Assembly: GCA_030829985.1 (NCBI GenBank)
Contig: JAURNW010000027.1
Coordinates: forward strand, 1 to 64,000
Direction of reading: 5' to 3'
From: Gammaproteobacteria bacterium
GTDB lineage: Bacteria > Pseudomonadota > Gammaproteobacteria > Eutrophobiales > Eutrophobiaceae
DNA length: 64,000 nucleotides
This document shows, piece after piece, positions 5,115 to 8,212 of this stretch. Both the position numbers and the translations under genes were made by a program. Below the pieces are notes generated by a model. That model was not told the origin of the DNA. It made no database searches and saw nothing but the letters and a program-made list of their open reading frames with translations. Position 1 is the first letter of the stretch; each line of letters starts with the position of its first letter.

Positions 5115-5555
5115 CTATCTGAAAAGTTGATTAATAAGTTCGGTGTTAAAACCGCGACTATATAAGAAACGTAGCTGTTTTGCTTTCTTTTGGTAATCAT
5201 CCGGTATCGAATCACCAAATTTTTTTAGCCTTACTTCGTTTGCCAATGATAACCAGTCGAAGGACTCAGCAGTTAATGCATTATCAATCAAAGCTTGATC
5301 AACACCACGTTGCCTTAATTCCTGCTGAATCTTTATAGGCCCCTGCCCCATGCCAATTCGATGATGAACAAAACTTTCAGCAAAACGTTCATCACTCTGC
5401 AATCCTTCACTTGCAAGTTTCTCGAGCAACTCTTCAATTAACGCTTCATCATCACAGCGACGTGCAAGTTTATGTTGCAGTTCCTTGCGACTATGTTCAC
5501 GTCTTGCCAGGAAGTCACAGGCGCGTTGTAAGACTTCCTGGCGTTCTGTACTCAG
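5115..5555 (-). CDS. recX: RecX regulatory protein, probable CTG start
   Basis: RecX binds RecA filaments and restrains their extension and activities. The frame encodes typical RecX three-helix repeats: [19 protein letters not shown] near residues 15-33, then [30 protein letters not shown]. Full similarity begins right at the recA stop, but the frame has no ATG, GTG or TTG before a TTG at 5429, which would remove the conserved first 42 residues. The best start is CTG at 5555-5553, overlapping the recA TGA (CTGA) and preceded by AGAGGT seven bases upstream. That gives 146 aa, a normal length. Translational coupling to recA is inferred; the exact start is uncertain. Confidence 0.88.
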
Positions 5556-6619
5556 GCGATTACCTCTTCTTCATCAAGCGCTTCCGCCGCGACTTCTTCC
5601 GCACTTACCGGAATGGATGGTAACAGTTTTTCCCTGATCAATGCTTCAATTTCCTGAGCCATTTTAGGGTTTTCTTTTAGATAATTACGCACATTATCCT
5701 TACCCTGACCGATACGTTCATCCCCGTAGCTATACCAGGCACCGGCCTTGTCTATAAGATCCAGCTTGACGCCTAAATCGATGACTTCACCTAGTCTTGA
5801 AATGCCTTCACCGTAAAGTATGTCGAATTCTGCCTGTTTAAAGGGAGGTGCAATTTTATTCTTAACTACTTTCACGCGTGTTTCATTACCAACAACTTCC
5901 TCACCTTTTTTGATAGCGCCAATTCTTCTAATATCCAGACGTACAGAAGCATAAAACTTTAACGCATTACCACCTGTTGTGGTCTCAGGACTACCAAACA
6001 TAACACCAATTTTCATACGAATCTGGTTGATAAAGATAACGCAACAGTTGGCGCGCTTGATATTTCCGGTTAACTTTCTCAATGCTTGAGACATTAAACG
6101 GGCAGCGAGCCCCATGTGTGAATCGCCCATCTCACCTTCAATTTCTGCTTTTGGCACTAGTGCAGCAACTGAGTCAATAACGACAAGCTCAACAGCACCA
6201 CTTCGCACTAACATGTCACAGATCTCCAATGCCTGTTCGCCGGTATCCGGTTGAGAAACCAAGAGTTCATCAATATTGACACCAAGTTTCTCGGCATAGA
6301 CCGGATCAAGCGCATGCTCCGCATCAATAAAAGCACAGGTTTTACCCTGTTTTTGAGCTTCAGCAATAGCTGACAAGGTTAATGTTGTTTTACCGGAAGA
6401 CTCTGGGCCATAGATTTCAACAACACGGCCATAAGGCAATCCACCTGCTCCCAATGCTATATCAAGACCCAATGAACCGGTGCTGACTGTCGGTATTTTT
6501 GCGACCGGTTGGTCACCCATTTTCATAACCGAGCCTTTACCAAATTGTTTTTCAATCTGGCTCAGTGCCATTGATAATGCTCTTTTTTTATCTTCTTCAA
6601 CCTTGTCTGCGTTTGCCAT
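5552..6619 (-). CDS. recA: Recombinase RecA
   Basis: RecA forms ATP-dependent filaments on single-stranded DNA, drives homologous pairing and strand exchange, and stimulates LexA self-cleavage. The 355-residue protein has Walker [10 protein letters not shown] (71-79), the [10 protein letters not shown] region (Walker B), the L2 loop [20 protein letters not shown] and an acidic C-terminal tail ending EEEVIA. Length and motifs are canonical. It is the promoter-proximal gene of recA-recX-alaS-lysC-csrA and is divergent from a WYL regulator. I see no enterobacterial-type CTG-N10-CAG LexA box in the upstream 200 bases, but there are TAGTA/TACTA inverted repeats. Confidence 0.98.
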
Positions 6620-6713
6620 GCTTATTCTCCATTTATTGCCTGATTAATATTCCGAAGCCATTCTCCGAACAGCTACCTTGGAAAGAACTATAGGCAATAC
6701 ATTTTTATATGTC

Positions 6714-6786
6714 AATACTTTTTATCACCTTAGTATTTTTTACTATGTAATATATTATATTAAGGTCTGGTCTGCTTTAGTATACT
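6714..6786. promoter_or_regulatory. Cluster of AGTAT/ATACT inverted repeats between recA and the WYL regulator
   Basis: The divergent recA/WYL intergenic region holds three related palindromes. AATACT-N12-AGTATT lies at 6714-6737. A perfect TAGTA-N5-TACTA lies at 6731-6745. A perfect AGTATACT lies at 6779-6786. The middle element is 107-126 bases upstream of recA and about 80 upstream of the WYL ATG. It is loosely like TTAG/CTAA-type LexA boxes remembered from Xanthomonadales, but the spacing differs. It may be an operator for LexA or for the WYL protein; the repeats are visible, the function is inference. Confidence 0.45.
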
Positions 6787-6826
6787 TTCGTGAATTCATT
6801 CATCTTTGGCACTATTTTGGAATCAA

Positions 6827-7699
6827 ATGCTAAACGAAATTAAATGGGCGACACGTCAGCGACTTCAATATATTGAACTGATGGCGTATTACACAGGTGT
6901 TGTGACACGTAGTGACGTGGCAAAGGCATTTGGAATCTCAGATGCAGCAGCAACTAAAGATTTGAAGTTCTATGGTGATATCGCCCCCGAGAACCTGTTA
7001 TACAAACATAATGTCTTCGGATTTGTTCCTACCCCGGGATTTAAGGAAGTGTTTGCTGATTTATCACCAGTGACAGTTTTACCGATGATTGAGGCTAATC
7101 TTACTGTTGTCGGAGGCCCAAATAAGGATAGTGCTGTTTTCGGGATTCCTGTTGATGGTCTGGCATTACCTAATAGATTGCCTGATAAATCAGTGCTGGC
7201 CGAGGTGACTCGCGCCATTCATAACCGAAAAAAACTACAAGTTAGTTATCATTCACTATCGCAAAGAACCCCAGATAAAAAAAGAATAATAGAACCACAC
7301 TCCCTAGCCAACACTGGTTTTCGTTGGCATGTCCGTGCCTACAACGAAGAGACGTTTGATTTTCGCGATTTCGTATTATCTCGGTTTGAAGACGCGCTCT
7401 GTCTAGACAAAGTGGCTGAATCCAGCATGCAATATGATGATGATTGGGTAGAGATCATTACCTTGAAACTCACACCACATCCGAAACTGGACGAAAAAAA
7501 CCGAACCAGCCTTTTGATCGACTACGGCAGTAATAACGAAATTATCGAAATCAGGATTAGACGGGCATTGATTGGCTATCTACTACAACAATTGGCTGTG
7601 GATACGACAAAAGATCATTCACTTAATCCCAAGAAATATCAATTGATAGTCCTTAATCGTGATGAAATTGAACCGTTTGCGAGTTGGGCGTTTAACTGA
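6827..7699 (+). CDS. WYL-domain transcriptional regulator, BrxR/CapW-like
   Basis: This 290-residue protein has an N-terminal winged helix (residues about 10-60, helix-turn-helix around VTRSDVAKAFGISDAAATKDL). A WYL domain (about 130-190) follows, with conserved-looking EPHSLANTGFRWHVRAY and FRDFVLSRF, and then a C-terminal WCX-like extension (about 205-285). This architecture matches the BrxR/CapW family, which represses phage-defence operons or responds to nucleic-acid ligands. No defence genes are adjacent: recA diverges upstream and pncC converges 12 bases downstream. ATG 6827 is chosen. A TTG seven codons upstream (6806) is in frame, but neither has a strong ribosome-binding site. The target is unknown. 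Confidence 0.85.
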   Translation: MLNEIKWATRQRLQYIELMAYYTGVVTRSDVAKAFGISDAAATKDLKFYGDIAPENLLYKHNVFGFVPTPGFKEVFADLSPVTVLPMIEANLTVVGGPNKDSAVFGIPVDGLALPNRLPDKSVLAEVTRAIHNRKKLQVSYHSLSQRTPDKKRIIEPHSLANTGFRWHVRAYNEETFDFRDFVLSRFEDALCLDKVAESSMQYDDDWVEIITLKLTPHPKLDEKNRTSLLIDYGSNNEIIEIRIRRALIGYLLQQLAVDTTKDHSLNPKKYQLIVLNRDEIEPFASWAFN

Positions 7700-7711: not shown

Positions 7712-8212
7712 TTATTCGGATTCTTTTTGCAATAAATCAACTAGTCCTTCCATTGCCAATAAACAAGCTTGTTCCCTTATCTTCAATCGATCACCTTTAA
7801 AACAGATTTTTGCTGTCTTCCCTATCTCATCGCGTTTAAACCACGCAAAACAGACTGTGCCAACCGGTTTCTCCTCTGTACCGCCATCGGGTCCGGCGAC
7901 TCCGGTAATTGAAACACTTATATCAGCGCGACTATTATCTAGTGCGCCTTTTGCCATGGCAATCGCCGTTTCTATACTGACTGCTCCAAATTCTTCAAGG
8001 GTCTCTATGGGAACACCAAGCATTTCTTGTTTTGACTCGTTTGAGTAAGTCACAAAACCACGTTCAAACCAGGCCGAACTGCCTGGGATACGAGTGATGG
8101 TTTCAGCAAGACCTCCACCTGTACAGGATTCAGCCGTAGTCAACCGAATGGATGACTTTAAAAATAATTCAGCGAGTTGTTCAGCTTGTCTTGTAGCAAC
8201 TTCACTCATCAT
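7712..8212 (-). CDS. pncC: Nicotinamide-nucleotide amidase, CinA C-terminal family
   Basis: PncC deamidates nicotinamide mononucleotide to nicotinate mononucleotide, recycling NMN made by NAD-dependent DNA ligase. The 166-residue protein is the stand-alone CinA C-terminal domain. It has TAESCTGGGLAETITRIPGS near residues 24-43, then FERGFVTYSNESKQEMLGV and SITGVAGPDGGT. The N-terminal molybdopterin-binding-like domain of full CinA is absent, as in E. coli PncC. Its ATG at 8212 overlaps the last base of the tadA stop (TAATG), so coupled translation is likely. A recA neighbour is common for cinA-family genes; here a regulator intervenes. Confidence 0.92.
   Translation of the reverse strand: MMSEVATRQAEQLAELFLKSSIRLTTAESCTGGGLAETITRIPGSSAWFERGFVTYSNESKQEMLGVPIETLEEFGAVSIETAIAMAKGALDNSRADISVSITGVAGPDGGTEEKPVGTVCFAWFKRDEIGKTAKICFKGDRLKIREQACLLAMEGLVDLLQKESE

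Follow-up and report, generated by a model that had tools for sequence, protein, structure and literature searches.

The BrxR/CapW regulators are known for switching anti-phage immunity and are reportedly released by ssDNA. CapW/BrxR represses until ssDNA is bound (PMC13373217, citing Blankenchip and Corbett 2024), and structure 9c5g carries the title R. leguminosarum CapW bound to ssDNA. Published accounts cover both the WYL pocket and the palindromic operators that overlie promoters (PMC9122588, PMC9122601), and phage-defence genes lie downstream of 48% of the family (PMC9122601). BrxR sites consist of half-sites 5 nt apart that overlap the -35 element; the 5 bp spacer has a narrowed minor groove, and higher-order shifts suggest dimers of dimers (PMC9122589). 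DriD of Caulobacter crescentus, likewise a wHTH-WYL-WCX protein, has ssDNA as its effector and is reported to regulate recA, a precedent, but by an activator (PMC11804915, PMC12340889). In their passages on DriD, those papers do not say that its gene adjoins recA. PafBC of mycobacteria is also a WYL regulator; it acts in the DNA damage response and is activated by ssDNA, but is an activator with two tandem or paired subunits. In the SOS response the repressor at the recA promoter that answers ssDNA is LexA, an unrelated protein. No description of a BrxR/CapW-type gene paired with recA was found in the full-text literature searched, which left subscription papers mostly uncovered.

The window analysed here is a 64,000 bp stretch of contig JAURNW010000027.1 from a gammaproteobacterial assembly (GCA_030829985.1). 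On its forward strand, positions 6827..7699 encode a 290 aa WYL regulator. An in-frame TTG is present at 6806, but orthologues favour the ATG at 6827 as the start. The only Pfam match is a WYL domain at residues 123-190 (E 2.2e-13); an NCBIfam search of the protein returned no match, and PADLOC returned two, both to generic CRISPR-associated WYL models. When solved structures in the PDB were searched with phmmer, nearly full-length matches were returned to BrxR (7t8k from Acinetobacter, E 1.3e-37; 7qfz, E 2.5e-37) and CapW (9c5g, E 4.1e-34; also 7tb6 and 7tb5), and full-length BrxR/CapW relatives spanned E 1.3e-37 to 1.4e-29. The match to PafBC was restricted to the WYL domain (E 8.8e-5). The regulator therefore satisfies the full-length homology criterion of the family, for which the published threshold is a BLASTP E < 1e-5 to BrxR (PMC9122601); phmmer was used here instead of BLASTP. 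A structure model built from 54 aligned sequences (pLDDT 83.9, pTM 0.79; low confidence at residues 92-113) is predicted to have the wHTH-WYL-WCX architecture and fold of the family. Compared by fold via Z scores, it is closest to BrxR (7qfz, 17.9; 7t8k, 16.9) and CapW (9c5g, 16.3), with a weaker match to DriD (13.2). As the rmsd of the superpositions is large (13-16 Å, about 15 Å for BrxR), the orientation of the domains in the model differs or is uncertain and is not reliable.

Across 49 recA-linked members, residues S38, A41, A42, T43 and K44 of the predicted recognition helix are invariant, as are Y141, S143, R166, W167, H168, R170, R180 and R186 (the final R of FVLSR) in the WYL pocket. 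Pocket position F182 varies (F in 44, Y in five). The family pocket set (Tyr, Ser, Arg, His, Arg, Phe, Arg) is present; correspondence to BrxR and CapW was read by eye from the phmmer alignments. Both by sequence and by fold, BrxR and CapW outrank DriD and PafBC, and we conclude that the regulator is a member of the BrxR/CapW family. CapW (7tb6, 7tb5, 9c5g) belongs to the same family over its full length, shares the pocket residues (W-H, R, F, R) and is a repressor with a palindrome over its own promoter, as is proposed for the regulator. CapW, however, stands at the head of the CBASS or other immune operons that it controls, whereas the regulator is divergent from recA, its inferred target, has four putative tandem sites rather than one or two, and carries its own recognition-helix signature, S-D-A-A-A-T-K-D. 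BrxR (BREX; 7t8k, 7t8l, 7qfz), the top match by sequence and fold, has half-sites with the 5 bp spacing that is read, from sequence alone, in the putative sites of the regulator, but the regulator has no defence genes nearby and a repeat array spaced 18 bp. DriD has the same domain order but is an activator with a three-helix bundle and a full-chain identity of only 15-17% (Z 11-13).

The regulator gene is divergent from recA (5552..6619, reverse strand, 355 aa), from which it is separated by a 207 bp intergenic region (6620-6826), and is flanked on the other side by pncC (7712-8212, reverse strand). Next to recA, the listed recX ORF (5115-5549, reverse strand) starts late (TTG, 104 aa), and its frame is open further upstream, giving about 144 aa of RecX-like sequence with no obvious ATG. 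The regulator is present as a single copy, with no further match in its own genome. When 116 related genomes were searched, a match was found in 35, of which 26 were at ≥62% identity. A class sample of 369 genomes contained 25 with matches of 56-100% identity, the next best being only 39%, and a phylum sample of 398 genomes contained just one besides the source genome (G618, 67%). Combined, these samples yield relatives of 56-100% identity in 45 genomes from 15 coded families of one class, which the named relatives identify as Gammaproteobacteria. Within the order, 21 of 53 genomes have the regulator at E 1e-60, and a truncated copy is found in G032.

A divergent recA adjoins the regulator gene in 25 of 26 loci from the relatives, in all 18 from the class sample and in the single locus (G618) from the fresh phylum sample. 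In the lone exception, L022 (G049), the contig ends before recA would be reached; the contig carrying recA in that genome starts with a 70% fragment of the regulator. Among 19 named loci from metagenome-assembled genomes (Gammaproteobacteria, Thiotrichaceae, Chromatiales, Ectothiorhodospiraceae and one labelled Thiobacillus), several of which duplicate genomes already counted in the 26- and 18-locus sets, recA is visible in 18, and the contig of the 19th stops 82 bp upstream. As the gene is kept at this identity in 45 genomes, beside recA wherever that can be seen, it is not a chance ORF. At seven distant loci (L027-L030 and L057-L059), recA is absent from flanks of up to 1.5 kb, with the L029 contig beginning at the gene, and in a protein tree a branch with SH-aLRT support of 92 separates 54 recA-linked rows from seven others. 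Of 43 loci, 40 have a gap of 162-269 bp between recA and the regulator gene, and three have one of 365-477 bp. By contrast, the gap to pncC could be measured in 34 of 44 loci, where it varies between -17 and 1182 bp; in the remaining 10, pncC is outside the examined flank, with some contigs ending. With the recA gap constrained and the pncC flank variable, the pairing is more than leftover synteny.

No defence gene was found by PADLOC among the ten genes around the regulator (1.2 to 14.1 kb), the sole weak match being tadA to a dCTPase model (5e-9), so the regulator does not stand at the head of a phage-defence operon, the position that marks the BrxR/CapW regulators of such operons. Distant homologues in the same class (<40% identity) had defence genes beside all six loci scanned: type I restriction-modification (L163, L166 and L169), BREX BrxC (L164), a DrmD/BrxH-like helicase with an AbiU match (L165) and an HKD+Snf2 helicase (L168). 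The scan took in six of eight distant loci, leaving out L162 and L167. These two are second, distant BrxR-type homologues in genomes that also have the recA-linked one (G017:C43:17168-17962 and G007:C27:14673-15446, respectively). A phage origin was considered and rejected, as 31 viral loci share at most 37% identity and none has recA in the available flanks. Plasmid homologues (668 records) are all below 60% identity. The earlier note had read a winged helix, WYL domain and WCX-like tail of BrxR/CapW type lying between recA and pncC without a defence operon, and all of this held. Of the results that it had named as telling against it, that of homologues lacking a conserved link to recA came out the opposite way.

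Alignment of 43 intergenic regions on TGTCAA revealed a core of approximately 78 bp (6686..6763 in the window) that is kept in all of them, with 22 invariant columns and flanks that mostly hold <0.3 bit per column. The core model, R1, matches the window at 66.1 bits (E 1.5e-19), by construction since this locus belongs to the model. Within the core lies a recA promoter on the reverse strand, with a -35 of TTGACA (6710..6715) and a -10 of TATAGT (6687..6692) separated by 17 bp. In all 43 loci the best-scoring promoter falls here and is close to consensus, with TTGACA in 42 and a spacer of 17 bp in 41 and 16 bp in two. The promoter is embedded in four tandem 15 bp pseudo-palindromes spaced 17-18 bp apart: repeat A (6695..6709), with the weakest symmetry, between the -35 and -10; repeat B (6713..6727), a 5-5-5 pseudo-palindrome overlapping the -35; repeat C (6731..6745), TAGTA-N5-TACTA; and repeat D (6748..6762), TAATA-N5-TATTA, on the side of the regulator's own promoter. 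A and B thus cover the recA spacer and -35, and C and D are placed 5' of the -35, toward the regulator's own promoter. For the regulator gene a candidate -10, TATACT (6781..6786, forward strand), has TATAAT nearby in relatives; it is weak, and another call scores higher in the window locus. Autocorrelation of the core is 0.557 at a lag of 18 bp and 0.525 at 36 bp, against 0.28-0.46 at the remaining lags.

Individually, the repeats are weak palindromes (mean complementarity 0.62-0.67, compared with 0.32 expected). In L055 the second and third units form a perfect 13-5-13 inverted repeat, AATACTTTTTATC-N5-GATAAAAAGTATT, and L056 is near-perfect; BrxR half-sites are reported to have this same spacing. 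The sequence over the recA -35 can be read as putative inverted half-sites with 5 bp spacing, with symmetry that is modest in most loci and no binding data to support them. By analogy, the T-rich repeat centres agree with the narrowed-minor-groove spacer of BrxR (PMC9122589). The core is A+T rich and may partly mirror promoter needs.

When the 116 genomes were searched with the core model, 27 places were returned at E 3.5e-11 or better, all in 26 genomes, and the next best match had E 0.0036. These are the same 26 genomes that have the regulator at ≥62% identity; in them the array sits only at recA, including on the recA contig of G049, and the other 90 have neither array nor regulator. The model was built from sequence only; presence in the training loci is by construction, but absence elsewhere is not. 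Outside the training set, the array was found in 18 of the 19 named loci, a set that partly overlaps with the training genomes, and in G618 (61.7 bits), and it was in none of 20 recA upstream regions from genomes lacking the regulator.

A wider regulon gained no support from the 12 sub-threshold array matches read in relatives, of which nine fall wholly within ORFs and the others have no gene in common. Single-site targets remain possible because one 15 bp A+T-rich site is too weak for searching. An orphan defence regulator acting on a remote defence locus, the alternative raised in the earlier note, draws support from the distant homologues that head defence operons. It is all but excluded by the array occurring once in the genome, at recA, by the constant linkage to recA and by the location of those nine matches.

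It is also conceivable that the array is read by another factor, such as LexA or a nucleoid protein, and that the regulator is a mere neighbour with no role there. This has no direct support beyond the A+T-richness of the array, and we regard it as very unlikely given that the same 26 genomes have both array and regulator, while the other 90 of the 116, many of which have LexA, have neither. The LexA of the source genome (198 aa; G000:C2:36732-37313, L079:1230-1826) is of a short, divergent type with alpha-proteobacterial-like boxes, GTTC-N7-GTTC, and LexA of the lineage scores 163 bits to TIGR00498. A direct repeat of this kind is present at 18 of 20 lexA promoters; in the recA-regulator intergenic regions GTWC-N7-GTWC was found in none of 43, even with relaxed letters. 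CTG-N10-CAG occurs in one of the 43, close to the regulator start codon. LexA was therefore rejected as the reader of the array, which its box does not resemble. In the source genome, the 17-mer GTTCTC-N5-GTTCTC with one mismatch occurs at three places, two at lexA and one within a coding frame, and is not enriched genome-wide since a reversed control pattern gave seven matches. As the pattern is found only at lexA, which is apparently monocistronic, the LexA regulon may be very small.

That the regulator has replaced LexA is likewise unsupported. A LexA match is present in 24 of the 26 regulator-bearing genomes (none in G002 and G032), and upstream of 20 recA genes lacking the regulator the direct repeat is in none and the CTG-N10-CAG word in four, of which only L113 resembles a real canonical LexA box. 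Because these upstream regions, which have a different promoter, also mostly lack a box, the regulator would add control rather than substitute for a visible LexA box, and it is no simple LexA substitute, a point against the model below. A recurrent GTGGGATAAT/ATGGGATAAT-like word was seen just 5' of recA in relatives lacking the regulator (e.g. L100, L101, L103-L106, L108-L111), whose common recA promoter is unlike that of regulator-bearing genomes.

Our preferred reading, held by a modest margin, is that the regulator represses recA, to which it is dedicated, as well as its own gene, and that ssDNA releases it. Binding to the array, repression and ssDNA as the ligand are all inferred, as there are no binding or expression data. 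In an undamaged cell, homodimers would sit on the tandem pseudo-palindromes over the recA promoter and toward the regulator's own promoter, holding down both genes. DNA damage or replication trouble would expose ssDNA, short pieces of which would bind the basic WYL-WCX groove, which is conserved. This would put the wHTH domains out of the geometry needed to bind DNA, and both recA and the regulator would be induced. As RecA polymerised on the ssDNA, the ligand would disappear and the loop would be closed, and the outcome would be direct ssDNA-responsive control of recA without need for LexA. This reading is favoured because of the invariant helix and pocket residues and the published operators and ssDNA release of CapW/BrxR, and a near-consensus recA promoter in all 43 loci fits it, as expected of a repressed promoter. 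Against it, dimers 17-18 bp apart would occupy different helix faces given that BrxR covers about 25 bp, the palindromes are weak, and the WYL relatives DriD and PafBC are activators. The suggestions in the earlier note of a control region common to recA and the regulator, and of ssDNA sensing tied to recombination, are supported, the former by the conserved core, though DNA binding and ssDNA sensing by the regulator are still inference.

Alternatively, the regulator could be a DriD-like, ssDNA-activated activator of recA, with dimers 5' of the -35 recruiting RNA polymerase when ssDNA is present. Repeats C and D are in an activator position, and regulation of recA has been reported for DriD, itself a WYL activator, whose fold the regulator resembles. 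However, the regulator is nearer to the repressors BrxR and CapW (best Z 16-18, 28-34% identity), and the recA promoter, which is close to consensus as it stands, is overlapped in its -10/-35 region by repeats A and B, making this unlikely. A regulator acting only on its own gene, with the recA promoter merely inside the array and little affected, is less likely still. Published BrxR/CapW members do regulate their own promoters, but the recA -35 lies at the centre of the array's invariant part, the gap to recA is kept while the other flank varies, and the pair seems to move together.

The inheritance of the pair bears on this last point. Within the family, recA identity to that of the window is 87-100% in regulator-bearing members and 74-81% in others, and GuaB (82-94% in most regulator-bearing members) gives the same grouping. 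As GuaB divides the same groups, the split in recA largely reflects vertical descent, and recent transfer as the sole explanation was rejected. Three genomes deviate (G087, from another family, G019 and G032), with recA at 85-88% but GuaB at 73-76%. This may reflect transfer, though misbinning is possible because the G032 and G019 contigs are only 3.1 and 7.5 kb. A recA tree groups the family's regulator-linked recA genes with that of G087 in one clade (support 100), which excludes the remaining recA genes of the family. An AU test rejected a single clade for all recA genes of the family (p 0.001) but not one origin of all regulator-linked recA genes (p 0.34). The test rested on a quick tree of 67 rows, from which six long or short rows and eight duplicate records had been removed beforehand, and the group was picked after viewing a tree. 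The recA-regulator pair perhaps travels as a unit. Two such loci were seen in each of two metagenome-assembled genomes (L069 and L072, JAGLTQ010000145.1 and JAGLTQ010000018.1; G043 contigs C1 and C5), representing either mixed strains or true duplication of the pair.

A bolder reading, which we raise only as a possibility, treats recA and the regulator as one self-contained cassette for ssDNA sensing that has spread from lineage to lineage, displacing the resident recA, and that constitutes a LexA-independent branch of the damage response. It would tie CapW/BrxR to core repair, through either one recruitment of an immune switch or an older role of the family. With sensor, operator and output within about 2 kb, the system would be compact and testable at once. 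A subfamily of these immune switches is locked to recA in 15 coded families, along with a tandem control region that is strongly conserved. If the proposed model is true, the same sensor would run core DNA repair, and ssDNA would act directly on recA in bacteria whose LexA seems to control hardly more than itself. The pairing with recA would then point to an unrecognised way of sensing DNA damage.
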